From: Ascidiaceihabitans sp.
GTDB lineage: Bacteria > Pseudomonadota > Alphaproteobacteria > Rhodobacterales > Rhodobacteraceae
Reading direction: 5' to 3'
DNA length: 64,000 nucleotides
Assembly (NCBI GenBank): GCA_028825475.1
Contig: JAPKAB010000011.1
Location: 1-64,000, forward strand
Of this stretch, positions 26,791 through 58,682 are shown piece after piece. Every line of letters starts with the position of its first letter. The first letter of the stretch is position 1. A model generated the notes under the pieces. The model saw only the letters and a list, made by a program, of their open reading frames with translations. It made no database searches and was not told the origin of the DNA. The position numbers and the translations under genes are program-made.

Positions 26791-27486
26791 TTAAGTACGG
26801 CTCTTTTCGAAGGTGTCCCAAGCTTCTTCAAATACTTCGAAATTAAACTCTGCGCTTCGGGCAGGCTCTAATATCAAAGTCTCTGTCGACAACAGCTTTT
26901 CGATTGAGGCTTCTAGCGTTTCGATCACGTCCTTGGGAATTACTAAAGCACCGTGACGGTCGGCGTGGATCAAATCGCCTTCGGTAACTGTCATCCCAAA
27001 AATCTCGACTTGAGTTCCAATCTCTTGAACGTGAACAAAGCCGTGGCTTGGACCGATTGACCCTGCAATAACTGGATAACCTGTTGGGACATCCCCTAGA
27101 TCGCGCATAACACCGTTTGTCAGCGTACCTGACAGCCCAAATCCTTTGTGCACAGTCGTGTTTATCTCTCCCCAATAGGCACCGATACAATCAGGGAAGT
27201 CGGTGTCCTCAACAACGGCCACTGCAGGCATTGGGGCATCGGCCATATGTTTGTAATAGGCCATGCGGCGCGCTTTGATTACTTCAGGAGCCTCGGTTGG
27301 TGCATTGACGGCAGCGATCTTAGCCGTGCGGGCATATCCAACAATTGCCGGTTCATCCGGTGCACTGCACAGCATCGTACCACGAGTAAATGCATCGAAG
27401 CCGCGTTTCCCTTGAGCAACTTCGATGGCGTTGCAAACTGTAGGCGTGTCCACAGATTGAAGGAGTTTTAGAAGTGATGGTGTCAT
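26791..27486 (-). CDS. RraA-family protein (4-hydroxy-4-methyl-2-oxoglutarate aldolase-like)
   Basis: A 231-residue protein of the RraA fold. Members include class II pyruvate aldolases acting on 4-hydroxy-2-oxoacids and oxaloacetate decarboxylases. Visible family stretches are SVDTPTVCNAIEVAQGKRG, GYARTAKI, YWGEINTTVHKGFGLSGTLTNGVMRD (with the RD arginine) and HADRHGALVIPKDV with the metal-site DR H. It is last in the cluster's minus-strand operon, six bases after the MetE-like gene. A terminal aldolase step giving pyruvate or glyoxylate would fit, but the substrate is unknown. Confidence 0.8.
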   Translation of the reverse strand: MTPSLLKLLQSVDTPTVCNAIEVAQGKRGFDAFTRGTMLCSAPDEPAIVGYARTAKIAAVNAPTEAPEVIKARRMAYYKHMADAPMPAVAVVEDTDFPDCIGAYWGEINTTVHKGFGLSGTLTNGVMRDLGDVPTGYPVIAGSIGPSHGFVHVQEIGTQVEIFGMTVTEGDLIHADRHGALVIPKDVIETLEASIEKLLSTETLILEPARSAEFNFEVFEEAWDTFEKSRT

Positions 27487-27492
27487 GATCTG

Positions 27493-28620
27493 TTATTCCT
27501 TCACCAATGCAGCGCCTTCGGAGAGGCTGGTCAGTTTTGCATATGCAATGTCTGGGTCAACGGCACCGAAGCCAGCAAAGGTTCCGAATCCACAATCGGA
27601 TCCTGCAATAACACGGTCTGAGCCAACGATCCCCGTGAAGCGTTCAATGCGTTGCGCCACCAACTCTGGATGCTCGACAAAGTTTGTGGTGGTGTCAACA
27701 ACGCCGGGCACAAGAACTTTGTTGTCAGGAATTTCAGATTTGCGGTCACGGAAAACTGTCCACTCGTGGGCATGGCGTGGGTTTGATGTTTCAAACAACA
27801 GGTATTTCGCCTTGGTCGACATAAGGGTCGAGAAAACAGTGTCCATCGGGATGTCGCAACAATGCGGTCCCTCGTAGTTGCCCCAACAGATGTGAATGCG
27901 CACCTTGTCCTCTGGGACGTTTTCTAAGGCGTGGTTCAGTGCTTCAACATGAGAGGCTGCAACCTTTAGAAACTCTTTGTCAGATAGGTCTTGGAACAGC
28001 ATGTGGCGCGATAGTGCGAGGTCTGGGCAGTCCAGTTGCAGATCAAGGCCAGAGGCGACAATGGTCTCGTATTCTTCGCGCATCGCGTCTGCGAGAGCTG
28101 CTAAATATGCCTCTCGCGTTTTGTAGTGATCGTTCTGCAAGAACAATGAAATCACGCCCGGTGATGCCGCGTTCATAAAGCCGCGTTTGGCCCCGTGGTT
28201 CGCCATCGCCCCCTTCAGATTGTCGATGTCCTTTTGCAGTTCACCTTGACCTTTTGACGTTACATCACTGGTGCACATTGGGCGCGCGTATTGGGGTGTT
28301 CCACCATCGTTTGCCAGACGTTTTAAAAAGCCTGGGAACATTTTTAAATCCGCTGGCGCATTGCGCGGGCTGTCACCAGAAAAACCAGTATAGCGGTCCT
28401 TAACATAAGTGGCATATGAGATTTTTGAGGTCTCGCCATCACTGACAATATCGATACCCGCTTTGACCTGTTTTGCTACAGTTTCATCAACTGCTGACGT
28501 CATAGCCGCATCAAAAGCGGCTTGGTCAAAAGGCTGTTCGTTTTCACGTGCGAAAATGAAATCTACAACATCTTGGGTGCGCGGCAAGCTGCCAACATGT
28601 GAGGTTAGGATTTTGGTCAT
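27493..28620 (-). CDS. MetE C-terminal-like zinc methyltransferase
   Basis: A 375-residue protein of the cobalamin-independent methionine synthase family, catalytic barrel only. The zinc ligands of MetE can be traced: H243 and C245 in RIHICWGNYEG, E277 in LLFETSNPR and C343 in GSDCGFGTF. So it should activate a thiol for alkyl transfer. It lacks the N-terminal half of full MetE, as do the short relatives that use small methyl donors. Set in a catabolic operon, it may demethylate the growth substrate or a product of it, or perform thiol-dependent cleavage. An additional CC pair (GPHCCDIP) is unusual. Substrate unknown. Confidence 0.78.
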   Translation of the reverse strand: MTKILTSHVGSLPRTQDVVDFIFARENEQPFDQAAFDAAMTSAVDETVAKQVKAGIDIVSDGETSKISYATYVKDRYTGFSGDSPRNAPADLKMFPGFLKRLANDGGTPQYARPMCTSDVTSKGQGELQKDIDNLKGAMANHGAKRGFMNAASPGVISLFLQNDHYKTREAYLAALADAMREEYETIVASGLDLQLDCPDLALSRHMLFQDLSDKEFLKVAASHVEALNHALENVPEDKVRIHICWGNYEGPHCCDIPMDTVFSTLMSTKAKYLLFETSNPRHAHEWTVFRDRKSEIPDNKVLVPGVVDTTTNFVEHPELVAQRIERFTGIVGSDRVIAGSDCGFGTFAGFGAVDPDIAYAKLTSLSEGAALVKE

Positions 28621-28653
28621 GGTGCTTCTTTCAAAATAAACATGGGTCCGATG

Positions 28654-29622
28654 TTATTTTCCGGTCCAGGTTGGCCCCGCAGGATCGTCGTTAGAAATCA
28701 CTCGATACAGGCTTGCTTCGCCTGTCATTGAGGGCTGTAGCGTGTGAGCAAAACCTGCAGGCAGCAGACACGTATCACCAGGGTTCAATGTTGATGATCC
28801 ACCATTCCAAGATAACTTCCAGTGCCCACGCATCGGCATCAAAACAACTGAATGATCGATGGCAATGGAAGCGTTCGTCAAAGACCCGCGTGTAATGAAT
28901 TCAACATCAAAGCCAGGTTTGTCTGGTAAAATGGCGTCACAACCAATGACTTTGGCTGGCGATTTGCCCGCAAGCCCCATTAGATCAAGGTAACGCGCGA
29001 CATGGCGCGGGATCACGTCCAAAGCGGCCGGCTCGGGTATTTTGGCAAGTTCTGCATCGCTCAGAACGGGCATGGGGTGCACGCCCTCGGGCAATGTGAC
29101 CCCTTGTTTGGTGTCATACAACTTACCATTTTCACCCAGAACCAGCCCATGTTCGGCGGCATCTTGTATCACTTGCGGTGCCCATGTCACGCCGCCACCG
29201 GCATCATCACCACCAAGGACAGCCATGATCATACCATAATCGGTTCCGATATTTTCAAAGCCACGAAAAATGTCAGTTGGGATATTGATGATATCGCCTT
29301 CTTCCAGCGTAACCTCACCTGCATCACCCCAACGTCCCCAAAAGAAGCGCCAGCGCCCTTTGAGGACAAAGAAAACCTCAGCAGTGGTGTGACTGTGTAA
29401 TGAATTGCGACATTTGGGCGGCTGACCTGCTGCCCCAATGTTGAAGCCGGGTGTGTCGTTGATGTGAACATGCTGGTCTGCGCTTTCGCTTACACCGCCG
29501 CCAATGATCGTAAAGTTCTCCTTCTGATCGCTGCCCGGTGTGTGGGCATCGATAAAGGCTGTTTTGCACGGGATCAGGTCACCGTAGCGAACGATCCGTT
29601 TTTCCATTTCTGCTGGTGTCAT
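28654..29622 (-). CDS. Double-cupin domain protein
   Basis: A 322-residue cytoplasmic protein with two cupin folds. The first (about 75-150) has the metal pattern HSHTTAEVFFVLKGRWRFFWG, then GDIINIPTDIFRGFEN. The second (about 235-310) has HWKLSWNGGSSTLNPGDTCLLPAGFAHTLQPS and kept only part of the metal ligands. The build is similar to gentisate-dioxygenase-type or sugar isomerase bicupins, but I do not recognise the exact family. The gene is tightly packed between the SnoaL-like and MetE-like genes (gaps of 4 and 33 bases), so it should act on the cluster's substrate or an intermediate. Confidence 0.7.
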   Translation of the reverse strand: MTPAEMEKRIVRYGDLIPCKTAFIDAHTPGSDQKENFTIIGGGVSESADQHVHINDTPGFNIGAAGQPPKCRNSLHSHTTAEVFFVLKGRWRFFWGRWGDAGEVTLEEGDIINIPTDIFRGFENIGTDYGMIMAVLGGDDAGGGVTWAPQVIQDAAEHGLVLGENGKLYDTKQGVTLPEGVHPMPVLSDAELAKIPEPAALDVIPRHVARYLDLMGLAGKSPAKVIGCDAILPDKPGFDVEFITRGSLTNASIAIDHSVVLMPMRGHWKLSWNGGSSTLNPGDTCLLPAGFAHTLQPSMTGEASLYRVISNDDPAGPTWTGK

Positions 29623-29626
29623 GGGG

Positions 29627-30595
29627 TTACCCTGTCTTCATCGCGATCTGTTTCCAGACCGAAGTTTCATCAAACAATGTGTATTCGCGGCGGATGCCCC
29701 AAGGACCAAACTCAACATGGCTGATGCCCATTACATGAACTTCCGCTCCAGAAGGTTTGCCAAATGCTCCCCAACCGTCGTGTTTGCCCGTTAGGCTCCA
29801 ACGAATTGCGGCGCGTGGTGACATCATTGGGTCTTCGCGTCCAATTTGATGATCGATCGTAAAGGAGGCTGAAGGGAAAGCCGCGCGCAGGCCGATCCAA
29901 AAATCATCAACGCCATCGGTGGAAATCAGTTCCTTTCCTCCGGGGTAAAACCCAGTGACTGCACGGTCATATTCTGAAGGGATAACACCCAGATCGGCGC
30001 CCATAATACGGTTCAAAATATCCGCGTATTTGGCACCCCAAGCGTTGTCATTGCCGCGACCGGTATAGGGTCCAACCTGATCGATAGAGGGATGGAAAGG
30101 TTGTACGCAGTTTTCAGGGCCACCTTCGCGTTCGATCAAATCGATAGCGTATACTTTTGGATCCCAGCCAAGTTGGCGCACGACAGCACCTTGGTCGCGG
30201 ATCAGCCATTCGTCATTGATTTGATTGTCGATTGCATGGCAGTCGGCAATAATGCGGTAGCGCAATTTTTTGCCAGTGGCTTTGCCATAGACGCCGTCGC
30301 CCAAATGAGTGGCCGTAGATAGAATACGGTGGGAGGACAGCATGCCTTCCTCAGGGGATCCCGACCAAATGACGTCTTCGCCAAGCAATCGTCGATCAGG
30401 AAATTCCGCAAGCGTTGCCATGGTGGCACCAATCACGCCCTCATTTCCAAACACGATGGAGCCTGGAGACCGCACAGGGATATCCGGCGCATAGTAGTGA
30501 TGCAATGTCGCAAGGTTGCGATGCTCCCAAATCTCTTGGGTAATCCCCAAAATATAGTCAGGGAAATCGGTGAACCGATCTGAGAAACCTTTCAT
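29627..30595 (-). CDS. Tandem SnoaL/NTF2-like protein (first of four)
   Basis: A 322-residue protein made of two SnoaL-like (NTF2-fold) halves. The first has ITQEIWEHRNLATLHHYYAP and FGNEGVIGATMATLAEFPD; the second has YDRAVTGFYPGGKELISTDGVDDFWIGLRAAFPSA and the typical final WKQIAMKTG. SnoaL-like proteins include small-molecule cyclases, dehydratases and hydroxylases. The start at 30595 is preferred over 30604: AAGGA lies eight bases before it, and ATGA overlaps the LacI-type regulator stop. It differs from the other tandem proteins in the cluster and seems to be a second subfamily. Confidence 0.68.
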   Translation of the reverse strand: MKGFSDRFTDFPDYILGITQEIWEHRNLATLHHYYAPDIPVRSPGSIVFGNEGVIGATMATLAEFPDRRLLGEDVIWSGSPEEGMLSSHRILSTATHLGDGVYGKATGKKLRYRIIADCHAIDNQINDEWLIRDQGAVVRQLGWDPKVYAIDLIEREGGPENCVQPFHPSIDQVGPYTGRGNDNAWGAKYADILNRIMGADLGVIPSEYDRAVTGFYPGGKELISTDGVDDFWIGLRAAFPSASFTIDHQIGREDPMMSPRAAIRWSLTGKHDGWGAFGKPSGAEVHVMGISHVEFGPWGIRREYTLFDETSVWKQIAMKTG

Positions 30596-31611
30596 GAGGT
30601 CCATCCTTCTGGGATTTTGGCAGAGCCACGCACAACAAGTGGACTATCCACTTTGATATGCCGCGGTTCGGACGCAGGGTTGCTGATTTTATCGATCATG
30701 AGAGCGACAGTTTCTTGGACCATGACATTGGCGCGTTGGCGTACAGTGGTCAGGTCATATGCAGCCCATGCTGCAGGTGGGACGTCATCATAACCAACGA
30801 CGCTGACATCTTCAGGAATACGCAGGCCAAGTTCGCTGCGAATGACATCCATCACCGCAAAAGCCATGTGGTCAGTGGCAACAAAAACGGCATCAGGGCG
30901 GGGAGAAGTGTTAAACATTTTACGTGCACCTTCTTTGGCACCGTCTACAGTAAATCCACCCAATTCATGCGCTGCAAGGGGTAGGCCCGCTTGGGTTAGT
31001 CCATCGCGAAAACCCGCTTCACGGTCACGCTGTGTTGATGCGCCTTCCCAGCCACCGATGTATCCGATGCGCTGGTGCTGACCGGCGGCAAAGAATGCGG
31101 CAACAGATTGTCCACCAGCAAAGTTGTTGGAGGTGACCGCCGAATGGTCAGTCGTATCTTGTGATCTGTTGAACAGGACAACAGGAACACCAGCCGCCGC
31201 ACAACGGGCGGTCAAATCGCTAGAGATACCAACGCTTGCAGTAATAATCCCATCGACCTGATAATCCAACAATTCGTCGATCACTTGATCCGTTGATTGT
31301 GTATCGTTGGACGCCATGAAGACGAGCACGTGATACCCCTCAGCCTGTAAGGAGTTCGATAGTTTCTCAAGTGCGAGAGGATAAAAGTAGTTGTCCAAAT
31401 ATGCGACTATCAACCCGATGATCCGGCTTTTACCTGTGATCAACGACCGCGCGAGTACGTTTGGGCGATATCCCAGTTCAAGGGCCGCTTGGCGTACCTT
31501 CAGTGCAGTTTTGGGGCTGACGGACGCGCCCTTTGTGAATACGCGGCTGACTGCGGACTGACTAACTCCTGCACGCTGGGCAACTTGGAACGATGTGATA
31601 CGATCAGCCAG
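30592..31611 (-). CDS. LacI-family transcriptional regulator within the SnoaL cluster
   Basis: A 339-residue repressor-type regulator: N-terminal LacI helix-turn-helix (FQVAQRAGVSQSAVSRVFTKG) with hinge YRPNVLARSL, then a periplasmic-binding-like sugar domain (IIGLIVAYLDNYFYPLALEKL, VGYDDVPPAAWAAYDLTTVRQ). The start is uncertain. GTG at 31665 lacks a ribosome site and overlaps the SDR gene by 62 bases; CTG at 31611 has GGAGGG seven bases upstream, overlaps the SDR stop and gives LADRITSFQVAQ, so it is used here. The probable targets are the paired 20-bp palindromes at 39655-39729. Being inside its own operon it would be autoregulated. Confidence 0.85.
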   Translation of the reverse strand: MADRITSFQVAQRAGVSQSAVSRVFTKGASVSPKTALKVRQAALELGYRPNVLARSLITGKSRIIGLIVAYLDNYFYPLALEKLSNSLQAEGYHVLVFMASNDTQSTDQVIDELLDYQVDGIITASVGISSDLTARCAAAGVPVVLFNRSQDTTDHSAVTSNNFAGGQSVAAFFAAGQHQRIGYIGGWEGASTQRDREAGFRDGLTQAGLPLAAHELGGFTVDGAKEGARKMFNTSPRPDAVFVATDHMAFAVMDVIRSELGLRIPEDVSVVGYDDVPPAAWAAYDLTTVRQRANVMVQETVALMIDKISNPASEPRHIKVDSPLVVRGSAKIPEGWTS

Positions 31612-32362
31612 CGGTCCACCCTCCGTCGATAAGAAGGTGGGTGCCCGTAACCATCGAAGACGCACCAGAGGCTAGGTACAATGCAGCCCCCATAATGTCT
31701 TCAACTTCACCGACGCGATCAAGCTTGATCTTATCATTGATCCACGCAGCACGAACTGGATCATCCAGAGTCGCAGCAGTTAAAGGTGTTCGAATGAAGG
31801 TTGGGCAGATTGTGTTGATCCTGATCCCCAATTCGCCCCATTCAATCGCCATGCTTTTGACCATGCCCTCAAGCGCGTGTTTGGACGTGCAATAGACTGT
31901 GCGATCGACGCCGCCCACGTGGCCCATTTGGGAGGAAATGTGGATGATTGATCCTTTGACACCGGCTGTTTTCATCGCTGTCGCAGCATAGGTCGATAAA
32001 AAATATGCAGAGCGCAAGTTGACATCCATAACGGCATCAAAGTCTTCTGGTTGGGTTTCAAATGCCGATTTGTGGCGGGCAAGGCCTGCTGAATTTATAA
32101 CTATGTCAAAGGGTTCAGCCAATGCTGTTTTTAAAGCGCCCAAATCCGATTGATCCAAAATCAACCCTTCAGCGCTTAAGCCCTGAGCTTTCATTGCGGC
32201 TACTGTTTCTTGCAGACGGTCTGCACCACGGGCCGCGCACACGACATGTGCACCAGCTTGCGCCATGGCCACGGCGCAGGCTTGTCCAATGCCAGATGAA
32301 GCACCAGTGACCAAAGCACGTTTGCCATTTAGCGAATGCGACGGTGTTGTCGGCAACTTCAT
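31604..32362 (-). CDS. Short-chain dehydrogenase/reductase
   Basis: A 252-residue classical SDR: nucleotide motif TGASSGIG (about 18-25), NSAG (89-92), and the catalytic Ser-Tyr-Lys set with YCTSK (Y157/K161 region). The acidic residue after beta-2 is absent (CAARGADR follows), which suggests NADP(H) as possible cofactor. It ends with the usual LLIDGGWTAG. In this cluster it should oxidise or reduce a hydroxyl group of a sugar-like intermediate. ATGA overlap with the upstream tandem SnoaL gene and overlap with the regulator start point to one polycistron. Confidence 0.85.
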   Translation of the reverse strand: MKLPTTPSHSLNGKRALVTGASSGIGQACAVAMAQAGAHVVCAARGADRLQETVAAMKAQGLSAEGLILDQSDLGALKTALAEPFDIVINSAGLARHKSAFETQPEDFDAVMDVNLRSAYFLSTYAATAMKTAGVKGSIIHISSQMGHVGGVDRTVYCTSKHALEGMVKSMAIEWGELGIRINTICPTFIRTPLTAATLDDPVRAAWINDKIKLDRVGEVEDIMGAALYLASGASSMVTGTHLLIDGGWTAG

Positions 32363-33405
32363 TCAGGTTCTCCGATTGGGAAATTTAAAGGACCCATATT
32401 CCGCGCTTTGTTGAATTCACGCAAGCGCGCAAACACATCAACGCCCAACTGGCGATATACGTCCAACAAGTCGACAAGGACCCAATTCTCCCGAATTTTA
32501 TCGCCGTCTAAACGCCAGAAATCCAAGGAACGCATTTCGATCTTCTGACCATTTGGCGCTATGCCCATCCAGCCTGATCCCGTTACAGTTTGCACCATAT
32601 CGGGCCAGCCAGTGACGGCGACATAATCGCCCTCAGCAAAGAAGTGGAACGTTGTTTCATCGGGAAATTGTCCGCGATCAGGCATGGCGTTGAGGAAGGG
32701 GATTTGATGCCAATTGCGAAAGCCTGAAATACCACGTGCTGTGCCAATGCCAGCAGGCCCGTACCACGTCATTTTTGGGTGCCAAAAGCGTTCAAGCTCC
32801 ATCGCTTCAACAGGTTCCGCAGGATGGCGCACCAGGGCCGTTAGCATGTCTAAGATATGGGCTTGGCAGAACTGCGCGCGATCCGTTTGATCGGTTGTAT
32901 CCAACAATCCATCTTGGGTGATCGGACCGGGCGTATGCCATTCACGACCCAAGCTTGGAGCCATAGGCCATGCACCGGCCTGCATCATCAGTTCTGGAAT
33001 ATCCCAGATCGCCTGAACCTCGACAATTTGCCCGTTCTCAATGCGGTAAAACTCGTGAAACCGCATGTGGGCAAGATGACCCGTTGGTGGGATATCTAGA
33101 AACGGGGCTGCAAAGGTACCAATATAGGAACCACAACATCCTATCCATTCGTTGCCCTCAGGAGTTTTGCCGCTGACAAGGATCGTATCGCGCCGCTCAA
33201 GGTCAGGCATGGCGGTGTACAAGGGCGCGAAACAAGTGTCGTAAAGCGCCTCTGCTGGAAGATCCCCAAAGGGGTGACACATGTGAACAATTGCACCCGG
33301 TGCCATGAGCCGTTGTAATGCCGTTCGCACAGTCGCTTCGGTAAAATCATGCAATGCCGCCAGTAGCGGCTGGATTGATTTTGTATTGCTGCGCGCCGTG
33401 TTCAT
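32359..33405 (-). CDS. Tandem SnoaL/NTF2-like protein (second of four)
   Basis: A 348-residue protein with two SnoaL-like halves. Marks are FYRIENGQIVEVQAIWDIPE and MMQAGAWPM in the first half, and WYGPAGIGTARGISGFRNWH, GQKIEMRSLDFWRLDGDKIR and NWVLVDLLDVYRQLGVDVFA in the second. It is plainly related to the plus-strand protein at 39786-40784 (WWGPAGIG, DIPHFMMQAGYKP, NWVFLDMLHFFNQQGVDILG). Related single-domain proteins are called ester cyclases, which need not be the function here. Directly adjoins the HisD-like gene and overlaps the SDR gene by ATGA. Confidence 0.72.
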   Translation of the reverse strand: MNTARSNTKSIQPLLAALHDFTEATVRTALQRLMAPGAIVHMCHPFGDLPAEALYDTCFAPLYTAMPDLERRDTILVSGKTPEGNEWIGCCGSYIGTFAAPFLDIPPTGHLAHMRFHEFYRIENGQIVEVQAIWDIPELMMQAGAWPMAPSLGREWHTPGPITQDGLLDTTDQTDRAQFCQAHILDMLTALVRHPAEPVEAMELERFWHPKMTWYGPAGIGTARGISGFRNWHQIPFLNAMPDRGQFPDETTFHFFAEGDYVAVTGWPDMVQTVTGSGWMGIAPNGQKIEMRSLDFWRLDGDKIRENWVLVDLLDVYRQLGVDVFARLREFNKARNMGPLNFPIGEPE

Positions 33406-34734
33406 TTAGTCTTTTGCATCCCGATAAGGTGCGCCTGTGCCGTATGGGACGTTGATCCCACCGTAGCGGCGTACGCGAACATTACATTGCTCTGCGTGGC
33501 CTACAAAGCCCTCAAGCATACATAGGCGGCTGCCGTATTCGCCCACTAATGTTGCGGCTTCATCGGTGGTGATTTTCTGATAGGAATGCGTCTTTAGGAA
33601 TTTGCCAACCCAAAGCCCACCAGTGTAACGGCCCGCCTTCTTGGTCGGTAAAGTGTGGTTCGTTCCAATAACTTTGTCCCCGTTTGAAACATTGGTCCGT
33701 GCCCCTAAGAACAGTGCACCGTAGCACGTCATTTTCTCAAGGAACCAATCGTCGCGATCTGTCATGACTTGCACGTGCTCAGAGGCGATATCGTCAGCAA
33801 CTGCCAACATTTCTTCATAGGTGTCGCACAAAATAACTTCGCCGTAGTCCGCCCAGCTGACTGATGCAGTATCCGCAGTGGGCAAGATTTTGAGCAAGCG
33901 ATCGATTTCGCGTAGCGTGTCTTCGGCCAGTTTGCGTGAATTGGTTAGCAGAACAGCGGGGCTGTTATAGCCATGCTCGGCTTGGCCTAAAAGGTCTGTC
34001 GCACATAACTCGCCATCAACGGTGTCGTCAGCAATTACCATCGTTTCTGTCGGGCCCGCGAACAGATCAATGCCAACACGCCCAAACAACTGGCGTTTGG
34101 CTTCAGCGACAAAGGCGTTGCCTGGCCCGACGAGCATATGAACGGGTTCAATTGTCTCTGTGCCAATAGCCATCGCGCCAACTGCTTGGATCCCGCCCAT
34201 CACATGAATTTCATGGGCACCGCCAAGATGCATGGCGGCAATCACAGCCGCGTTCGGCTTACCATTGAAGGGAGGGGTGCAGGCAATAATCCGTGGAACG
34301 CCAGCAACCGTGGCGGTGGCAACAGACATATGTGCTGATGCAACCATCGGGAACTTGCCACCCGGAACATAACAGCCAACAGATTGGACCGGGATATTTT
34401 TGTGGCCTAGAATAACGCCTGGCATCGTTTCAACTTCGATGTCTAACATGCTGTCGCGCTGGGCTTGGGCGAAGTTGCGCACCTGCGCTTGGGCGAATTT
34501 GATGTCAGCCAATTCACGATCCGACAAGGATGCGATCAGATCGTCAATTTCTGCTTGTGACAGTTTGAAGGATGCAGGCGTATAGTTGTCGAACTTGGCC
34601 GAAAGGTCACGCACTGCTGCATCACCGCGCAGCTCAATATCTTTTAATGTGGCTTCGACAACAGCTTTGGTCTTTGCATCGTCTTCAGCGCGCTCTGCGT
34701 CAGGTTTGCCGCGTTTTAGGTATTCTACTGCCAT
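33406..34734 (-). CDS. HpsN/HisD-family NAD-dependent alcohol dehydrogenase
   Basis: A 442-residue zinc enzyme of the histidinol dehydrogenase family that oxidises a primary alcohol to a carboxylate in two NAD-linked steps. Typical stretches are [66 protein letters not shown] (metal-site Q and H) and [19 protein letters not shown]. By memory it is closer to HpsN (sulfopropanediol 3-dehydrogenase of roseobacters) than to biosynthetic HisD. There are no his genes nearby, and no sulfonate lyase gene either. So a related polyol or sugar alcohol substrate is inferred, with DHPS as an alternative. Confidence 0.82.
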
Positions 34735-35279
34735 TAGTCTTTTCCTGTTTCTGTCGTGGGGGAGGGCGGTGTCTTCTCACCACGGTCATAAGCTTCCCAC
34801 CCGTGACCGTTGAAAACATCCACGCCCAATTGCGCAAGAACATGCGGAAAATCGACCATCACCCAGTTATCAGTGATCTTGCCGTTTTCCACTCTCCAAA
34901 AATCCATATAGCGAATTTCGATCCGCTTACCTGTGGCTTCGACGCCCATGAACTTGCCCGAATGCAACGCTTCTTGACGTCCAAAGGCCGCGGCCCATTC
35001 GCCCATGTAGAGGCGCGCTTCATCAACGCAAACCTTGTCTGAGAAGGCCGCTTGAAATGGCTTTTGCCAATTGTTTTGAAATTCCTTGATGCCTTCTTTG
35101 GTCCCGCATCCTGTGTTGCCCATCCAACTGAACCCTTGACTAAAGAATTCACCGATGTCCGCAATGCGGTGGTCATTCAGTCCATCCACCATACCCTCGA
35201 TAACCGCGCGGGTTTCTTCGGTTTTAGACATGTCTGTATCGCGCGACAATACCGCTTGTTCTGGGCGTGCTCCGCTCAT
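34734..35279 (-). CDS. Single-domain SnoaL/NTF2-like protein (third of four)
   Basis: A 181-residue protein equal to one SnoaL-like domain. Its end, [38 protein letters not shown], lines up with the C-terminal halves of the tandem proteins at 32359 and 39786, so it is a paralogue. The start at 35279 overlaps the MalG-type permease stop by ATGA. It is thus translated right behind the transporter, as first enzyme-like gene of the operon. Catalytic residues cannot be named with certainty. Confidence 0.72.
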
Positions 35280-36160
35280 CCTTTGACGGCTCCTGCTGTA
35301 AGGCCACTTACGATTTGGCGTTGGAAGAATAGGATCAAGACGAACAAGGGTGCCGTCGCTGAAACAACTGCTGCAACTGCAAACATGACGTTGCCTTCGG
35401 TCTGGGTTGTTCCCAAGAAACTGGCAATTTTTGGCACCATCGTTTGGTTCGCTTGGCTTAGCAATGTCGCGGTAACAGTGAAGTCATTGTAGGCCAACAG
35501 GAATGAGAACAACCCTGTGGTTACAACGCCTGGCCACATGACGGGGACGATGACATGGCGAAATGCTTGGAAGCGTGTGCAGCCATCAACCATTGCGCTT
35601 TCATCAAGGTCTTTGGGGATGTTGAGAAAAAAACTGTGTAACATCCATAGGGTGAAGGGCTGATTGATTGCCACCATGACGATGATCGCGGTCGGCAAAT
35701 GCCCCCAGAGGTTCCATTCAAAGAACGGCAGGAGATATCCAGACACCAAAGTGATGTGTGGCATGGCGCGAAACACGAGGGCGAGCATCAGCAAATAGAA
35801 CGCATACTTCTTGCCAGAGCGGGCAAGGGCGTAACCGCCAAGCGTGCCAAGGGTCAGTGAGATGATCACGACAGACACGACTACGATGCTGGTGTTTAAA
35901 GCGGCAAGCCAGAACTCTTTGGTGACCCACGCGCCGTAATACCCTTTGCCAGTGAATGCGCCGCCCGTTTCGATTTGAGTGCGCACGCCGTAAACTGCGT
36001 TGGTCCAATCAGCTTTAGAGAAGAAGTCACCCTGTACTTTGAAAGATCCCCAAAGCGTCCAAAGGAACGGAAACCCTGCGGCAACGATCCAGACCAAGAC
36101 AAGGCCCCAGATGATTATATTTAATACGGGTGAACGGCGATGAACGATATCTGACATCAT
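35276..36160 (-). CDS. CUT1-type ABC transporter permease (MalG-like)
   Basis: A 294-residue inner-membrane permease with about six helices and the EAA loop MVDGCTRFQAFRHVIVPVMWPG. It belongs to the carbohydrate uptake 1 group, which imports sugars, oligosaccharides, polyols or glycerophosphates. There is a periplasmic stretch after helix 1 (about 45-80). Overlaps the MalF-like gene upstream and the SnoaL-like gene downstream by ATGA each. Confidence 0.88.
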   Translation of the reverse strand: MMSDIVHRRSPVLNIIIWGLVLVWIVAAGFPFLWTLWGSFKVQGDFFSKADWTNAVYGVRTQIETGGAFTGKGYYGAWVTKEFWLAALNTSIVVVSVVIISLTLGTLGGYALARSGKKYAFYLLMLALVFRAMPHITLVSGYLLPFFEWNLWGHLPTAIIVMVAINQPFTLWMLHSFFLNIPKDLDESAMVDGCTRFQAFRHVIVPVMWPGVVTTGLFSFLLAYNDFTVTATLLSQANQTMVPKIASFLGTTQTEGNVMFAVAAVVSATAPLFVLILFFQRQIVSGLTAGAVKG

Positions 36161-37188
36161 ACCAGCTTCTGATTAAAGTCGCGCCACGTGCGGATCAGCA
36201 CTGGAATAAGCAGGATGCTCACCCCGATAATGGTTAGGACAGAGGTTGCGCCGGCTGAGCCAAAGAATTGGCTCTCGTTACCCACAAGATCATTGTAGAT
36301 AATCCACGACAAAGAGGTGGCGCTGGCTTGGGCCGAGAAACTGACGATCGGTTCAAAGACTCGGAAGTTGTCCATCAATTGGATCAACGAGATGAAGACG
36401 GTGAGCGGCATCAAATGAGGTAGAACAACATAGCGTGTCCGCTCCCAACGTGATGCACCATCAATCATCGCAGCTTCCATTGTGTCAGCAGGAACCGTTT
36501 GTAGCCCTGCGTAAAAGACGATGAATGCGAAAGGGGCAGAGTGCCAAACGCCGTAGACCATAAGCATAATCCAAGTCAGGGTAGGCGATGCTTTCAACGA
36601 TAGGTTTGGATCGTCGAATATCCGCTGCAAGGTCGCGCCAAGGATACCGTTGGCATCAATCATCCAGAACAGGATCAACGAACCAATCAGCGGCGTTACG
36701 ATCATTGGCAACAGGGAGATAAAGATCGTTGGCCCTTTAATCCTCTTTGGCAATGTGTTCACGCCAAGCGCGATCATGAAGCCAAAGATGATGACCAATG
36801 GTGTCACCACGAAAGTGTAGGTCAACGTAAACGCAAGGGCGCGATAGAACGGGAGGTTCAGGGCTTTGGGCATGAAGTCAACAAAGCCAGTGCTGGACTG
36901 CCACGCCAAACCGATTTCGGTGAAGGCAAGGTGATTGCGGTTGGTGTAGGTGCCCAAGCCATTGAACTGACCCAACGGGCGCTCTTCTTTCAGCTTGGCT
37001 GTTTCTTCTACATCTACCTGTAATTCTTGTTTGCACCCAAACGGGCCACAGTTTTCAACTTCAACCATGACGGCTTCATGCTCGATATGCACGGACTGCA
37101 CTGCAACAGAAACAATCGGCAAAGCTATAAACAGCAACATCGTAATCAACGATGGCAATATAAACCAAAAGAAGGTGCGGTTTTTCAT
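36157..37188 (-). CDS. CUT1-type ABC transporter permease (MalF-like)
   Basis: A 343-residue permease with an EAA loop MIDGASRWERTRYVVLPHLMPL. After the first helix there is a periplasmic insert of about 80 residues (roughly 30-110) containing the two cysteines of ENCGPFGCKQE, which could form a disulfide. It pairs with the MalG-like protein to form the channel. A hairpin separates it from the binding-protein gene. Confidence 0.88.
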   Translation of the reverse strand: MKNRTFFWFILPSLITMLLFIALPIVSVAVQSVHIEHEAVMVEVENCGPFGCKQELQVDVEETAKLKEERPLGQFNGLGTYTNRNHLAFTEIGLAWQSSTGFVDFMPKALNLPFYRALAFTLTYTFVVTPLVIIFGFMIALGVNTLPKRIKGPTIFISLLPMIVTPLIGSLILFWMIDANGILGATLQRIFDDPNLSLKASPTLTWIMLMVYGVWHSAPFAFIVFYAGLQTVPADTMEAAMIDGASRWERTRYVVLPHLMPLTVFISLIQLMDNFRVFEPIVSFSAQASATSLSWIIYNDLVGNESQFFGSAGATSVLTIIGVSILLIPVLIRTWRDFNQKLV

Positions 37189-37227
37189 CAGGCTCGCCTA
37201 CGGCTGGGGTGAAAGAGGATGGGTGAA

Positions 37228-37250
37228 GAAGGGGGCGATATGCCCCCTTC
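37228..37250 (-). other. Hairpin between binding-protein and permease genes
   Basis: GAAGGGGGC (37228-37236) and GCCCCCTTC (37242-37250) pair over a five-base loop. On the minus strand it follows the binding-protein stop and is followed by TTCACCC, so it should stabilise the binding-protein mRNA or weaken read-through. Confidence 0.6.
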
Positions 37251-37259
37251 CGTAGTGGT

Positions 37260-38495
37260 TTAGTTTAAGAAGCCTTGCTCTTTTGCTGCTGCGGTATATG
37301 CCGCTTCAACGTCAGCCAATGCTTGCTCTGCGCTTTCAGAGCCCTGCAAGAAATCGGTGATTTCTGCGCCAAGAGCTGTGTGAAGTGCACCCATGAATGG
37401 CAACATTGGGTAGGGCGCTGCGCCGCCAGCTGCTGTGCCTGAAACACCTGCTGATGCTGGGCTTGGCATGTATGCACCGTCCAACCATACAGCTGCGTCA
37501 TTGTTGGCTTTGACAACGTCAGAAGAAATGCCGTTCATCATAGCAACGAATGTTGCTTCTGCATCTTCGTCAGATACGTTGGTTGAGATTGCAATGCCGT
37601 CCCACCATAGTGTTGAAGCTGGGCGTGCGTCGTTGCCCCATGTTGGTGCTGCTGATAGAACAGTGCCGGACACGACTTCGGCTGTTGAGCCTTCGTCGTC
37701 CAGAATGGCGCTGCCGCGTGATCCCCACATTGTTGCCAATGCAAGATTGCCAGCTTCCCACTCAGCCTGTGTCGCGTTGGAGTCATACGTCAGATAATCT
37801 GGATTAGAGTAAGCAACCAGTGACTTAAGCATTTCCAATGTAGCAACGCCGTTTTCGTTGTTTACCGCAGCTTCTGCAGTGCCTGATTTAAAGAAGTCAG
37901 CGCCTGTACCCATGTACATGTTCACGAACTCTTCGGCCAAGTTCCAGCCAGCTTTTGTGTTCAAAGCAACGGGATAGTCCATCAAGCCAGCAGCGCGGAT
38001 TTTTTCAGCGGCAGCAAGAACGTCTTCGTAAGTTGCTGGGATGCCCTCAACGCCAGCTGCTTCCAACACGTCAGTGCGTGAGAACAAGTGTTGTGCGTTG
38101 GCCATGAAGGCAACAGCCATCACTTTGCCGTTCACTGTGATCAACTGGCTTTTGCTCAATGCAGCGCCGTGTTTGGCAACCATTTCGTCCAGTGGGCGAA
38201 CCAAACCGTCGTTCATCAATGTGACGAGGGTAGAGTTGGAAACAACCACTGAGGAGTATTGAGCAGGGTTAGCGGTAAGAGCCGCAACCATAATGTCTTT
38301 GTGATCCTTGGTAAGGTTGGTTTCAACCGTTACGCCGTCACCAGCACATGCTGCTGCGGCAGATGTCACGGCTTGAATTGCTGGGAAATCGTTGGATAAA
38401 ACGCTGACGTTGCCGCCTGAAATACCGCATCCGGCGATTGCTGTGCTTCCCAAAAGTGCGAAAGCACCTGCGAATGTAATAGTCTTTAGAAACAT
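37260..38495 (-). CDS. CUT1-type ABC transporter substrate-binding protein
   Basis: A 411-residue periplasmic binding protein with a signal peptide (MFLKTITFAGAFALLGSTAIAG, cleavage about residue 21). The start at 38495 is preferred over 38516, since GGGAG sits six bases before it. The mature chain has the extracellular solute-binding family 1 pattern (MVAALTANPAQYSSVVVSN, GWNLAEEFVNMYMGTGADFF, WWDGIAISTNVSDEDAE). The ligand is not deducible by eye; the CUT1 type and the LacI regulator suggest a sugar or polyol. Confidence 0.87.
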   Translation of the reverse strand: MFLKTITFAGAFALLGSTAIAGCGISGGNVSVLSNDFPAIQAVTSAAAACAGDGVTVETNLTKDHKDIMVAALTANPAQYSSVVVSNSTLVTLMNDGLVRPLDEMVAKHGAALSKSQLITVNGKVMAVAFMANAQHLFSRTDVLEAAGVEGIPATYEDVLAAAEKIRAAGLMDYPVALNTKAGWNLAEEFVNMYMGTGADFFKSGTAEAAVNNENGVATLEMLKSLVAYSNPDYLTYDSNATQAEWEAGNLALATMWGSRGSAILDDEGSTAEVVSGTVLSAAPTWGNDARPASTLWWDGIAISTNVSDEDAEATFVAMMNGISSDVVKANNDAAVWLDGAYMPSPASAGVSGTAAGGAAPYPMLPFMGALHTALGAEITDFLQGSESAEQALADVEAAYTAAAKEQGFLN

Positions 38496-38577
38496 TTGTT
38501 TCTCCCTGGTTTTCATTAAGATGCGCCTTGCAAGATCGCACCTTGGTTACTCCCCTTTCTGGGGATTTGGTTCGGGG

Positions 38578-39627
38578 TTATCCCCCAATTCGCGCACCTG
38601 TTTGTGTATCGAACAAATGGCAAATGTCGTTTGGCACAGAGATACGAACCATGTCGCCGATCTGTGCGCGGTATTCTTTGGATGCCTTGACCGAGACCAG
38701 CTCGCCGTTCACCCGAACAGTTATCATCGTCGCGTCCCCAAGCAGTTCCATCGTGTAAACAGCCGCGTGGATTTCACCGCCAGTGTCCACGATGGATGCG
38801 TCTTCTGCGCGAAATCCTAGCTGAACAGGGCCATCGGCTATGTCAAAGCCTGCGACCTTGATATGATCGCCCTCAAAGACGCCGCCCGCAGATAATCCGG
38901 TCACCAAGTTCATGGCAGGTGAGCCAATAAAACTGGCGACGAAAGCGTTGGCAGGGCGGTCATAGATTTCAGTCGGGCTGCCCACTTGCTGCACAACGCC
39001 GCCTTTCATCACGACCACCCGGTCTGCCAATGTCATGGCTTCGATCTGATCGTGGGTGACGTAGATGGTTGTGACCTTCAGTTCGTGGCTTAGGTTTTTG
39101 ATTTGGGCACGGGTCGAAACCCGCAGCTTTGCGTCCAAATTGGAAAGAGGTTCATCCATTAAGAAGACATTGGGCTCACGTACAATCGCACGGGCCAATG
39201 CCACGCGTTGGCGTTGGCCACCAGATAGTTCTGCTGGTTTGCGATGTAGGAAATCATCCAGTTCAACCATGGCAGAGGCACGCATCACACGTTTTTCATG
39301 CTCGGCCTCAGGGATTTTGCGTACCTTCAAAGGAAAACGAATGTTTTCGTAAACATTCATGTTCGGGTACAAAGCATAGGATTGGAACACCATCGCAACA
39401 TCGCGATCTTTGGGGTCCAAATCATTCACTCGAACGCCGTCGATCAGGATGTCGCCACCTGTTACGTCCTCTAAACCAGCGATCATACGCATGGTTGTCG
39501 TCTTGCCGCAGCCGGATGGGCCAAGCAGCACAAGAAACTCTTGATCCGCAATTGTAAGGTTGAAGTCTTCGACCCCAACGAAGGTTCCCCATCGCTTTGA
39601 TAGATTGCGCAATTGGATTTCGGCCAT
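38578..39627 (-). CDS. CUT1-type ABC transporter ATPase (UgpC/MalK-like)
   Basis: A 349-residue ATPase: Walker A GPSGCGKTT (about 36-44), LSGGQRQRVALARAIV signature, Walker B VFLMDEPLSNLDAKLR, then a C-terminal TOBE/OB regulatory domain ending in DTQTGARIGG. The start at 39627 has GGGGGG five bases upstream and is better than 39648. It is the first gene of the minus-strand operon and starts about 30 bp from the nearer LacI-type operator. Confidence 0.9.
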   Translation of the reverse strand: MAEIQLRNLSKRWGTFVGVEDFNLTIADQEFLVLLGPSGCGKTTTMRMIAGLEDVTGGDILIDGVRVNDLDPKDRDVAMVFQSYALYPNMNVYENIRFPLKVRKIPEAEHEKRVMRASAMVELDDFLHRKPAELSGGQRQRVALARAIVREPNVFLMDEPLSNLDAKLRVSTRAQIKNLSHELKVTTIYVTHDQIEAMTLADRVVVMKGGVVQQVGSPTEIYDRPANAFVASFIGSPAMNLVTGLSAGGVFEGDHIKVAGFDIADGPVQLGFRAEDASIVDTGGEIHAAVYTMELLGDATMITVRVNGELVSVKASKEYRAQIGDMVRISVPNDICHLFDTQTGARIGG

Positions 39628-39654
39628 GCAGTCCCCCCGGATGATCATTGATCA

Positions 39655-39674
39655 TTTTGCATACGTTTGCAAAA
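39655..39674. promoter_or_regulatory. LacI-type operator O1
   Basis: TTTTGCATACGTTTGCAAAA, a 20-bp near-palindrome centred on CG as in GalR/LacI operators. It is the exact reverse complement of the second site at 39710-39729. It lies about 30 bp before the ATPase start. Confidence 0.85.
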
Positions 39675-39709
39675 AGGATAGACTTCGATCAAACGCTCAT
39701 GCAAGCTAA

Positions 39710-39729
39710 TTTTGCAAACGTATGCAAAA
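39710..39729. promoter_or_regulatory. LacI-type operator O2
   Basis: TTTTGCAAACGTATGCAAAA, reverse complement of O1, 55 bp away start to start. Placed between the two divergent operons, the pair suits binding by the cluster's own LacI-type regulator, possibly as a tetramer or two dimers. Confidence 0.85.
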
Positions 39730-39785
39730 TACTGATGCGGTTCGATGCAAAGCCCTTTGTATCAAAGGAAAAAAAGGAAAATACG

Positions 39786-40784
39786 TTGAGTTTTCAAGCT
39801 GAAAAACAAGTGATACGGGAATACTATGGCGCTTTGGACAATGCCAAAGGGGATGGAATCACCGCCGTTCTGGGCCAGTACACTGCTGACAACTACACAT
39901 GGCGCGCTTTTCATCCTTTTCATTTGCAAACAGAGTCAAAAACGGTGTCGGAACTGTTCTGGCAGCCGTTTCGCGGCGCTGTAACGTCCATGCAGCGGCG
40001 GATGGATGTCTTTTTCGCGGGTAACAACTTTATCGACGACAGTGGTTCTGTTTGGGTTTGTTCGATGGGTCACTTGATGGGTTTGTTTGACGCCCCTTGG
40101 TTGGGAATTCAGCCAACCGGCAAAATGATCATGTTACGTTATGCTGAGTTCCACAAAGTTGTAGATGGCAAGATCGCCGAAACTGCATTCTACTTTGATA
40201 TTCCACATTTCATGATGCAGGCAGGTTATAAACCTTTTCCAGACCAAGCCGCCGCACACATGGTCCAACCTGGACCCGCACCCCATGACGCGCTGTTGTT
40301 TGAAGATGCTGATCCCGAAGAGGGGCAAAAGACATTAGACGTCATGCATAAAATGATCAGCGACTTGGGGCAATGGAACAGCGGTTTGCCACTTGAGGAA
40401 GAGCTAGCCCTAAGTTGGCACGACGATATGATCTGGTGGGGTCCTGCGGGTATTGGAGCGACTTATACGATCGCTCGCTATGCTCAGCAACATTCAGGTC
40501 CATTCCGCGCTGGGCTAAGCGACCGATCGGGAACAGGTCACATCGCCCGTATCGCTGAGGGAAATTATAGTGGTTTCTTTGGGTGGCCAAACTTCAAGGC
40601 AAAAGCAACAGGTGGATATCTGGGGCTGCCATCCAATGACAAAATTTGCGAGTTTCGGGTTATTGACGTTTATCGACGGGATGGGGACAAGCTCAAGGAA
40701 AACTGGGTGTTTCTCGATATGTTGCACTTTTTCAACCAGCAAGGTGTAGACATTTTGGGAGAACTGGAAGGCGGGCAGGAATGA
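39786..40784 (+). CDS. Tandem SnoaL/NTF2-like protein (fourth of four)
   Basis: A 332-residue protein with two SnoaL-like halves, paralogous to the protein at 32359-33405: both have DIPxxMMQAG, W-GPAGIG and a closing NWV-D-L---QGVD-L segment. The TTG at 39786 is chosen because AAGGA precedes it by seven bases; upstream in-frame ATG codons at 39735 and earlier fall in or near the operators and lack a ribosome site. It opens the short plus-strand operon divergent from the transporter and overlaps the amidohydrolase gene by ATGA. Confidence 0.72.
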   Translation: MSFQAEKQVIREYYGALDNAKGDGITAVLGQYTADNYTWRAFHPFHLQTESKTVSELFWQPFRGAVTSMQRRMDVFFAGNNFIDDSGSVWVCSMGHLMGLFDAPWLGIQPTGKMIMLRYAEFHKVVDGKIAETAFYFDIPHFMMQAGYKPFPDQAAAHMVQPGPAPHDALLFEDADPEEGQKTLDVMHKMISDLGQWNSGLPLEEELALSWHDDMIWWGPAGIGATYTIARYAQQHSGPFRAGLSDRSGTGHIARIAEGNYSGFFGWPNFKAKATGGYLGLPSNDKICEFRVIDVYRRDGDKLKENWVFLDMLHFFNQQGVDILGELEGGQE

Positions 40785-41659
40785 AATACATCGACGCGCA
40801 CCATCACCTTTGGGACTTAAATGCGGTTTCATATCCGTGGCTTGAGGCAAAGGGCGTAACGCGTTTCTTTGGTGATCCCGCACCCATCCAACGCAATTAC
40901 CTGATTGATGAGTTCAGCGCAGAGGCGGCGCCTTTTGGATTTGTGGGCTCTGTTCATGTTCAAGTGGGGGCCGCGGATGCGTGGGAAGAAGCCAAATGGG
41001 TTCAGGTAGTCGCCGATTCAAATCCCGATTGGCCGATGGCGCAGGTTGTTTTTTGTGACCTGACCAGCCCAGATTTAGCAGATCAACTTGACCGTTTCCA
41101 AACCCTGTCTACCGTGCGCGGGGTGCGCCAGATTGTTGGGCGTGCGCCGGGTGAAGATGCACAAACGGGCACCAATGAATTGGCCCAGTCAGATGCGTTC
41201 TTGGAAGGGCTAAAAGCGGTCGGCGAACGCGGGTTAAGTTTCGATTTGCAACTTATTCCCGAGCTGATGCCTGCGATGGCCGACGTGTTGAAGCAGGTGC
41301 CGCAAACGCGAGTTGCTCTGTGCCATGCCGGATCGCCTCATGACCGCAGTCTTGAGGGGGTGCGTGGGTATGCACAGGCGCTACGGTCTCTATCTCAGCT
41401 GCCCCAAGTTTATTGCAAGCTGTCTGGTCTTGGCATGTTCGACCACAATTGGAATGCGCAAAGCATCCGGCCAATTGTTGACGTCTGTCTAGATCAGTTT
41501 GGGCCTGAACGCTGTATGTTTGGTTCAAACTTCCCAGTTGATAAACTGTATTCAAGCTATGAAAAGTTGGCGAACAGTTACGGTGAAATTGTCCCGGTGG
41601 GAGTACACAGGCTCGTGTTTTCTGATGTTAGTCGGACGTTTTATGGTCTTACTGAGTAG
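40781..41659 (+). CDS. Amidohydrolase-2 / COG3618 lactonase-like hydrolase
   Basis: A 292-residue TIM-barrel hydrolase of the COG3618 group, which includes L-fuconolactonase, L-rhamnono-lactonase and 4-sulfomuconolactone hydrolase. It opens with YIDAHHHLWDL (metal-type HxH) and has VRGVRQIVG, ALCHAGSP and a late MFGSNFPVDKLYSSYEK with the conserved aspartate. In a cluster with two alcohol dehydrogenases, lactone hydrolysis after sugar oxidation is the simplest idea. It is the last gene of the plus-strand operon. Confidence 0.83.
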   Translation: MKYIDAHHHLWDLNAVSYPWLEAKGVTRFFGDPAPIQRNYLIDEFSAEAAPFGFVGSVHVQVGAADAWEEAKWVQVVADSNPDWPMAQVVFCDLTSPDLADQLDRFQTLSTVRGVRQIVGRAPGEDAQTGTNELAQSDAFLEGLKAVGERGLSFDLQLIPELMPAMADVLKQVPQTRVALCHAGSPHDRSLEGVRGYAQALRSLSQLPQVYCKLSGLGMFDHNWNAQSIRPIVDVCLDQFGPERCMFGSNFPVDKLYSSYEKLANSYGEIVPVGVHRLVFSDVSRTFYGLTE

Positions 41660-57391: not shown

Positions 57392-57420
57392 ACGCCCCAC
57401 TTCTCGTGGGGCGTTTTTTT
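57392..57420 (+). terminator. Strong intrinsic terminator after the ABC operon
   Basis: ACGCCCCAC (57392-57400) and GTGGGGCGT (57406-57414) pair perfectly over TTCTC, followed by a T-run. It ends the pyd transcript right at the stop of the convergent dioxygenase gene. Confidence 0.9.
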
Positions 57421-58600
57421 ATGCCTGTTGGTTTAGGCGCATCGTTTCGAGGTCGGCGGCAAAATCATCCGCACCCATCCCCGCGTCCAAAGCGCGGGTA
57501 AAGAACGCGGCCTGCGTCTCAGGCGCAAGCCCCCCTTTGGGTGGATCGCGGTCCAAGTTGGTGGGGAATGAATACCCCTCAGCCGATGACGCGATGGCTG
57601 CGGCCATTTCATGTGGATTTAATATTGCCGCGCGTTGTGCCTCTTTAGCGAATGGATACAAAAGGTTGCACATCTTTTGGCGGTCGACGGTTTCCATTGC
57701 GCGCCCAAATGCAGACGAGACCTGTAGCAGGTTGGCCATACGGTGGATATCTGGACTCGTATTGGCCCCAGCCGCGTGAAAAACCGCTGGATTAAAGAAC
57801 AGCGCGTCGCCCTTGGCCAAGGGCAGTTGGATATAGCGTTCTTCAAATGAGGCCCTGAAATCATCACGCCGCCACGCGGTATATCCCGCAGGGTACAGTT
57901 GTGAGAACGGCAGCAGTTTGGTTGGACCACTCTCAACAGGCATATCGCAGTGCGCGACAGCCCCTTGAAGCGTCAAAGCAGGGGATAAGTCATGCACATG
58001 GGACGGGTAATCCGCGCTGATGTCTGCTGTTTGAAACCCCAAATGATAATCACGGTGGGCCAGTTGTGCCCCGCCACCCGGATGAACCAAGTTGATCTGC
58101 GCCGTCATCTGATAGTTTGGCCCCAACCATGCCTCAGATGCTGCTGCGATGGCCGTATTGGCAAAATAGTGCAGGAACACCTCTGGCGCTGTTTCGCACA
58201 GCTTTTGCAGGGAATTCCAAATGCGGTCATTTGATCCCGCCGCGGCAAAGTGATCACCACCCCCGCCATTTGCCTTTTTCTCTGCTGCTATGATGCTTTC
58301 ATAAACTGTGGTTGCGTCATCCAAAACTGCCGTATCCGCATAGGCACCGCGCAATACGATAATGCCTGCGCCTGATTTCAAAACATGCGCCCATTCAGCC
58401 ATGATCTGGCGGCGGGTGCCTTTGACGTTCAACGCATCGCGCAACGCGGCTATGTCATAGATCGGCACATTGTGCTGAACCTCAGCGGCATGTGGCAAAT
58501 TGGCTAAATCGGTTGTCTGGTCAATCAACGTTTCAAACGTGGATAGGTCGCAAGCTTCGGGATCAAAGAAGCCGGTGTCTGGCTCAATCATGGGTGTCAT
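57419..58600 (-). CDS. Phytanoyl-CoA dioxygenase-family (PhyH) oxygenase
   Basis: A 393-residue Fe(II)/2-oxoglutarate-dependent oxygenase of the PhyH type. The iron triad can be read as H-x-D in LAHRDYHLGF and the distal histidine in HAAGANTSPDIHRMANLLQ, with the nearby arginine for 2-oxoglutarate. The start at 58600 has GGAG seven bases upstream; longer frames run into the divergent gene. Substrate unknown; roseobacter PhyH proteins hydroxylate varied small molecules. Divergent from a LacI-type regulator that should control it. Confidence 0.82.
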   Translation of the reverse strand: MTPMIEPDTGFFDPEACDLSTFETLIDQTTDLANLPHAAEVQHNVPIYDIAALRDALNVKGTRRQIMAEWAHVLKSGAGIIVLRGAYADTAVLDDATTVYESIIAAEKKANGGGGDHFAAAGSNDRIWNSLQKLCETAPEVFLHYFANTAIAAASEAWLGPNYQMTAQINLVHPGGGAQLAHRDYHLGFQTADISADYPSHVHDLSPALTLQGAVAHCDMPVESGPTKLLPFSQLYPAGYTAWRRDDFRASFEERYIQLPLAKGDALFFNPAVFHAAGANTSPDIHRMANLLQVSSAFGRAMETVDRQKMCNLLYPFAKEAQRAAILNPHEMAAAIASSAEGYSFPTNLDRDPPKGGLAPETQAAFFTRALDAGMGADDFAADLETMRLNQQA

Positions 58601-58644
58601 GGTGTTTCTCCGTTCATGTCTCTCCATAAGTTGGCTCAGATTTA

Positions 58645-58674
58645 TGTTGATTGGTGAGTTAAAACACATCAACA
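58645..58674. promoter_or_regulatory. Inverted repeat in the dioxygenase/LacI divergent promoter
   Basis: TGTTGAT (58645-58651) and ATCAACA (58668-58674) form a 7-bp inverted repeat with a 16-base spacer, just before the regulator start at 58683. Candidate operator for that regulator; not of the usual CG-centred type. Confidence 0.4.
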
Positions 58675-58682
58675 ATACATCA

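Follow-up and report, generated by a model that had tools for sequence, protein, structure and literature searches.

Two inverted copies of a 20-bp palindrome lie in the divergent region between a ugpC-like ATPase gene and a tandem-SnoaL gene of the 64,000-nt stretch of DNA analysed here (the window), which raises the question of which protein binds these sites and which of the flanking genes they control. A preliminary description had read them as LacI-type operators through which the regulator encoded at 30592-31611 governs both divergent operons in a symmetrical manner. Its sequence part is borne out by the letters themselves: positions 39710-39729 are the exact reverse complement of positions 39655-39674, with 55 bp from start to start and a gap of 35 bp, and the pair is adjoined, as had been claimed, by a UgpC-type ATPase gene on the minus strand and a tandem SnoaL gene on the plus strand. 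Each 20-mer is a palindrome around a central CG with nine of its ten half-site pairs symmetric (it differs from its own complement at two letters). In both operators the outer half reads TTTTGCATAC and the inner half TTTTGCAAAC. With their length of 20 bp and the central CG, both sites fall under the even palindromes of 16-22 bp with a central CG that the main text of Ravcheev et al. 2014 (PMC4052901) gives for LacI-type operators. The features of the locus are collected in Table 1, in which the gene starts at 39627 (ugpC) and TTG 39786 (SnoaL) are likely starts read from the sequence.

Table 1. Operators, promoter-like elements and genes of the locus (positions in the window).
Feature	Position	Strand	Remark
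Transporter-proximal operator TTTTGCATACGTTTGCAAAA	39655-39674	.	exact letters, uniqueness, conserved position in relatives
Distal operator TTTTGCAAACGTATGCAAAA	39710-39729	.	uniqueness; 53-56 bp from the proximal operator in all 52 paired loci
-35-like element CTTGCA (relatives mostly CTTGCC)	39700-39705	-	CTTG conserved; window letters
-10-like element TATCCT, abuts proximal operator	39675-39680	-	TA conserved; window letters
UgpC/MalK-type ABC transporter ATPase, first gene of operon	38578-39627	-	likely start 39627; open frame to 39648
Solute-binding protein (SBP_bac_1), sugar-binding PDB relatives	37260-38516	-	
Two ABC permease genes	36157-37188 and 35276-36160	-	
SnoaL	34734-35279	-	catabolic gene
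HisD-fold dehydrogenase, nearest to sulfopropanediol dehydrogenase	33406-34734	-	catabolic gene
Tandem SnoaL	32359-33405	-	catabolic gene
SDR	31604-32362	-	catabolic gene
LacI-family regulator, recognition helix VSQSAVSR	30592-31611	-	open frame to 31665
Further cluster genes: tandem SnoaL, double cupin, MetE-like, RraA-like	26791-30604	-	synteny in relatives
Divergent tandem SnoaL, possible second target	39786-40784	+	likely start TTG 39786
Divergent amidohydrolase, possible second target	40781-41659	+	

The operator pair is unique in the draft genome. No other place with at most three mismatches to the operator was found in the 64,000-nt window, and shuffled windows give 0.03 expected matches at this threshold, with none of 100 shuffles reaching four. 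A search of all 84 contigs of the draft genome (3,101,868 bases) at the same threshold added nothing, so that the genome scan, from which many unrelated copies of the motif would have spoken against the proposal, yielded only the two places in the window. Also for the looser 16-base core TTGCAWWCGWWTGCAA, the two window operators are the only exact matches in the genome.

Furthermore, the conservation of the sites among relatives was assessed. Searching named genomes with the regulator yielded 80 loci, and in most of them a large part of the cluster is present. Another 80 loci of the family and 17 class-wide loci, at least 12 of the latter from other families, brought the total to 177 relatives. 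Of these loci, 46 stay outside the counts: in 40 the lacI strand has no intact ugpC start, in four ugpC is preceded by permeases and no sbp, and in two the upstream DNA is too short. Redundancy was removed only for the 41 pairs (LacI less than 90% identical) that underlie the promoter counts below; the 110 loci with ugpC as first gene and the 21 loci with sbp as first gene were kept whole. In the first set, a TTTTGCANNCGNNTGCAAAA-like site with at most three mismatches is present in 61 of 62 upstream regions (61 relatives whose ugpC start is intact, and the window), as compared to 6 of 1220 random windows. Among the ugpC-first relatives, 105 of 110 contain a site at this threshold and 51 contain a pair, whereas control windows of the same size contained a site in 12 of 2415 cases and a pair in none. 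Within an allowed range of 40-70 bp, the spacing of the 51 pairs is 53 bp (1), 54 bp (22), 55 bp (23) or 56 bp (5); the window adds one pair at 55 bp, giving 52 paired loci, all at 53-56 bp. Being conserved in relatives far above the control windows, the observed sites are confirmed as real, and they are conserved together with the regulator and the target operon across species.

The distribution of the sites is not uniform, however. Five of the 110 ugpC-first relatives (L139, L156, L157, L159 and L188) have no site. In the sbp-first relatives a site lies upstream of sbp in 14 of 21 loci, seven are without one, and a pair occurs in none. More than half of the loci with a site carry a single one; the pair is therefore not obligatory. 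In rearranged loci a site is found upstream of hisD (L158, L160, L190, L199, L205 and L210), and four of these (L160, L199, L205 and L210) have a second, operator-like site upstream of sdr-lacI, so that the regulator may go on controlling itself where lacI no longer belongs to the transporter operon. One further locus (L092), which lies outside the count of 14 of 21, carries its pair, spaced 54 bp, upstream of sbp, and the gene behind this pair is codirectional. As judged from these placements, the sites tend to belong to the promoter of the operon and to move with it, rather than to a fixed neighbour.

The symmetrical control advanced in the preliminary description would mean that two promoters stand back to back, each with its start overlapped by one operator, and that the transporter operon and the SnoaL-amidohydrolase operon are shut off equally. 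The two window operators are indeed exact mirror images, and of 40 paired loci inspected, 39 have a divergent SnoaL gene beside the pair. The mirrored arrangement, exact as it is in the window, is not conserved, as it recurs in only 2 of the 52 pairs (the window and L097). The outer halves have a conserved T in both operators (distal 36/41, proximal 37/41). The inner half of the proximal operator has A in 32 of 41 pairs, and in that of the distal operator the letter varies (T in 22, A in 17, C and G in one each of the 41 pairs). Given this rarity of exact mirrors and the unequal conservation of the inner halves, the arrangement is best read as a single promoter with an operator on either side, and not as a divergent switch that acts symmetrically.

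This promoter would be oriented towards the transporter genes. On the transporter strand, 40 of 41 non-redundant pairs have CTTG at an offset of 3-5 from the distal operator, and 40 of 41 have TA within the 7 nt that immediately precede the proximal one. At the mirrored places on the SnoaL strand, CTTG occurs in one pair and TA in 12, and promoter-like elements mirrored on both strands, as expected for symmetrical divergent control, are thus not seen. In the aligned pairs, CTTGCC directly follows the distal operator and a TA element precedes the proximal one; the rest of the spacer is little conserved. A generic sigma70 and terminator scan of positions 39500-39950 found no promoter and no terminator. 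When both strands of 31 pairs were scored against an alphaproteobacterial promoter consensus (CTTGAC-N16-19-CTATAT), the mean was 8.13 for the transporter strand and 7.58 for its opposite, with 7.78 (sd 0.79) in shuffles. Because such consensus scans miss the promoter or separate it poorly, the claim of a promoter is based on positional conservation, which points to a sigma70-type transporter promoter between the operators. Transcription of the ugpC operon would then be expected to start under the proximal operator. As a separate observation, the conserved spacer heptamer TTGCCAA of the relatives reads TTGGCAA on the opposite strand and could act as a -35-like element in both directions.

A rightward promoter for the divergent genes could be sought in a weak CTTCGA-N17-CTAATT at 39683-39711, which would set its -10 element against the distal operator. 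The pair is, however, kept in L092, which has no divergent SnoaL gene, and conversely the SnoaL gene is still divergent in several close relatives with a single site (e.g. L050, L056, L058 and L098). Together with the missing conserved element on the SnoaL strand and the rarity of the exact mirror, these loci make equal control of both operons possible but doubtful, and this part of the preliminary description is not upheld. The likely SnoaL start lies 56 bp beyond the end of the distal operator, and this site may still act on the gene.

The regulator bound at the distal operator, at about -50, could also activate the transporter promoter through contact with RNA polymerase, and the proximal site would repress. 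In some relatives (e.g. L043, L114 and L118) a distal-type site is indeed found alone, directly upstream of CTTG, and a rough classing puts 20 of 71 single-site loci into the distal type, in a list that miscounts some true pairs (e.g. L085 and L094) as single. However, the distal operator ends 4 nt upstream of the -35-like element, so that a bound protein should clash with polymerase, and autoregulated local LacI regulators are usually repressors. We therefore hold additional activation from the distal site to be decidedly improbable, and repression from both sites is the reading followed below.

Next to the target, the identity of the binding protein had to be considered. The protein encoded at 30592-31611 belongs to the LacI family (PF00356, 45.4 bits; Peripla_BP_3, 103.8 bits; both above cut-off). 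It is one of seven LacI-type HTH proteins found in the genome and the only one with the helix VSQSAVSR. Co-occurrence of site and regulator was analyzed in 198 genomes of the family, where a close LacI homologue was defined by E <=1e-80 and CCGG-centred sites were removed first, because they resemble sites of another LacI protein. Of the 83 genomes with such a homologue, 30 have an exact non-CCGG site, as compared to 1 of the 115 that lack one (Fisher p 2.5e-12). In this single exception (G164) the operon is present, on a contig that breaks off within hisD and does not reach the expected place of lacI. No exact 16-base match is present in 53 of the 83 genomes with a close LacI homologue. Only CCGG-centred sites were found in 4 of the 35 genomes having any exact site.

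The recognition helix appears to vary together with the operator. Most relatives have Gln as helix residue 36, and 18 of 161 have Arg. In a set of 107 site-associated regulators (less than 97% identical), half-site position 8 is C in 15 of 16 rows with Arg36 as compared to 3 of 91 rows with Gln36, corresponding to about five independent changes on the tree. The operator types contrasted in this way are TTTTGCAC-type and TTTTGCAT-type. By mutual information, residue 36 ranks first among the LacI columns (0.425 bits, with 0.280 bits for the next), and an independent-pairs sign test of residue 36 against the operator, underpowered with about five independent changes, gave a median p of 0.25. Exceptions are L075 (Arg, no C) and L152, L205 and L210 (Gln, with C); the 17 class-wide loci added no Arg36 case. 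Arginine reads G and glutamine reads A, and the observed covariation fits this chemistry.

Nevertheless, one of the other LacI-family proteins of the genome might bind the operators, given that seven LacI-type HTH genes are present and that the sites of a paralogue share the frame TTGCA..CG..TGCAA. The nearest paralogue, encoded on contig C32 (helix VSRSAVSRTY, 34% identity), has Arg at the same helix place yet a CCGG-centred operator instead of the ACGT-type centre, which counts against a simple covariation. Its operators TTGCAACCGGTTGCAA are located at G000:C32:20732 and 25006 (L250), one of them upstream of its own gene. This paralogue appears to have a site of its own. A CCGG-centred site also immediately precedes a LacI gene in G075 and G086, whose product has 33% identity to the query. 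The helix VSQSAVSR, the covariation and the co-occurrence all point to the cluster regulator. Binding by a different LacI-family protein is accordingly rated as highly improbable. As the sites co-occur with the LacI orthologue and residue 36 covaries with the operator, the assignment made in the preliminary description, both of the LacI-type character of the palindromes with their central CG and of the regulator at 30592-31611 as their binder, gains support from conservation, co-occurrence and covariation. The cluster regulator is predicted from sequence to bind both operators very probably.

Taken together, we consider it quite probable that these are two operators of the regulator at 30592-31611, whose dimers would bracket and overlap the transporter promoter, block RNA polymerase and thereby also repress the regulator gene. 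In the absence of inducer, two regulator dimers would flank the sigma70-type promoter of the leftward ABC-transporter and catabolic operon, the distal dimer against the -35 region and the proximal dimer over the edge of the -10 element and the start site. Both would lie inside the stretch that polymerase needs and would exclude it from the promoter. The transported compound or its product would bind the regulator, which would then leave the DNA and allow transcription of the operon. From ugpC to lacI all genes are directed leftward, with gaps of at most 71 nt and several overlaps, and lacI is located about 8 kb downstream of the ugpC promoter. Because lacI sits in this controlled gene run, the regulator should limit its own synthesis.

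In E. coli, more than one lac operator is found around one promoter, and repression occurs by occlusion. The arrangement predicted here resembles that of LacI in both respects. It differs in that no tetramerisation tail is evident in the window regulator, whose PurR-type core ends at residue 348-349 of 357, about 8 residues before its end, as judged from alignment length only. DNA looping by a LacI-type tetramer, which calls for a C-terminal tetramerisation helix, was considered on this basis and set aside, and looping at 55 bp is unlikely. Among PDB relatives, the regulator aligns over nearly its whole length with E. coli PurR. From what is generally known of PurR, the two have the ARSL hinge motif in common, as well as a CAAACGTTTG-like core around a central CG; the recognition helix and the target genes are different, and the regulon is local as compared to the global regulon of PurR.

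Local LacI-family regulons with even palindromic operators were described by Ravcheev et al. 2014 (PMC4052901), whose main text reports predicted autoregulation for 72% of the regulators studied and multiple sites in front of about 20% of the regulated operons. The regulon described here is like these in its 20-bp even palindrome with central CG, its local catabolic and transport operon, its predicted autoregulation and its multiple sites. It is unlike them in spacing: the distance peaks named in that text are 13, 22 and 32 bp, whereas the sites found here are 53-56 bp apart and bracket the promoter. This spacing of about five helical turns could itself be functional, such that two dimers and the promoter form a nucleoprotein clamp that acts cooperatively around polymerase or traps it; we regard this as rather unlikely. 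The word SnoaL is absent from the main text of PMC4052901. In the library searched, no paper contained the operator strings, and no description of the cluster or regulon was found in the titles and abstract openings listed. Operator type, local scope and autoregulation are, within the text cited above, already known features of the LacI family. The regulation is well supported, yet of an ordinary kind of gene control.

With regard to the substrate, the gene at 33406-34734 is assigned to histidinol dehydrogenase by family models, yet its product is closer to structures of sulfopropanediol (DHPS) dehydrogenases (380 bits) than to histidinol dehydrogenases (247 bits). The pathway is therefore probably catabolic and not one of histidine synthesis. 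The binding protein has a weak likeness to several sugar binders in the PDB, and the MetE-like protein has weak matches only. The cluster at 26791-41659, frequent in marine bacteria, encodes four SnoaL-domain proteins (three of them tandem) in addition to the MetE-like and RraA-like proteins. Elsewhere in the window, in the region 57419-59714, the open frame 58500-59714 (+) encodes a second LacI-type regulator with a sugar-binding-type domain; this gene overlaps or abuts a divergent gene for a PhyH dioxygenase.

Overall, our results provide a well-supported regulator-operator pair for a catabolic cluster often encountered among marine Rhodobacteraceae and also present in contigs labelled gammaproteobacterial or SUP05. 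The clamp, if true, would represent a site geometry outside the 13, 22 and 32 bp peaks named for the LacI family in the main text of PMC4052901. The covariation offers a testable specificity code, in which Gln36 goes with T:A and Arg36 with C:G. The definition of the regulon groups genes that belong together, and it supplies a reporter for finding the inducer.
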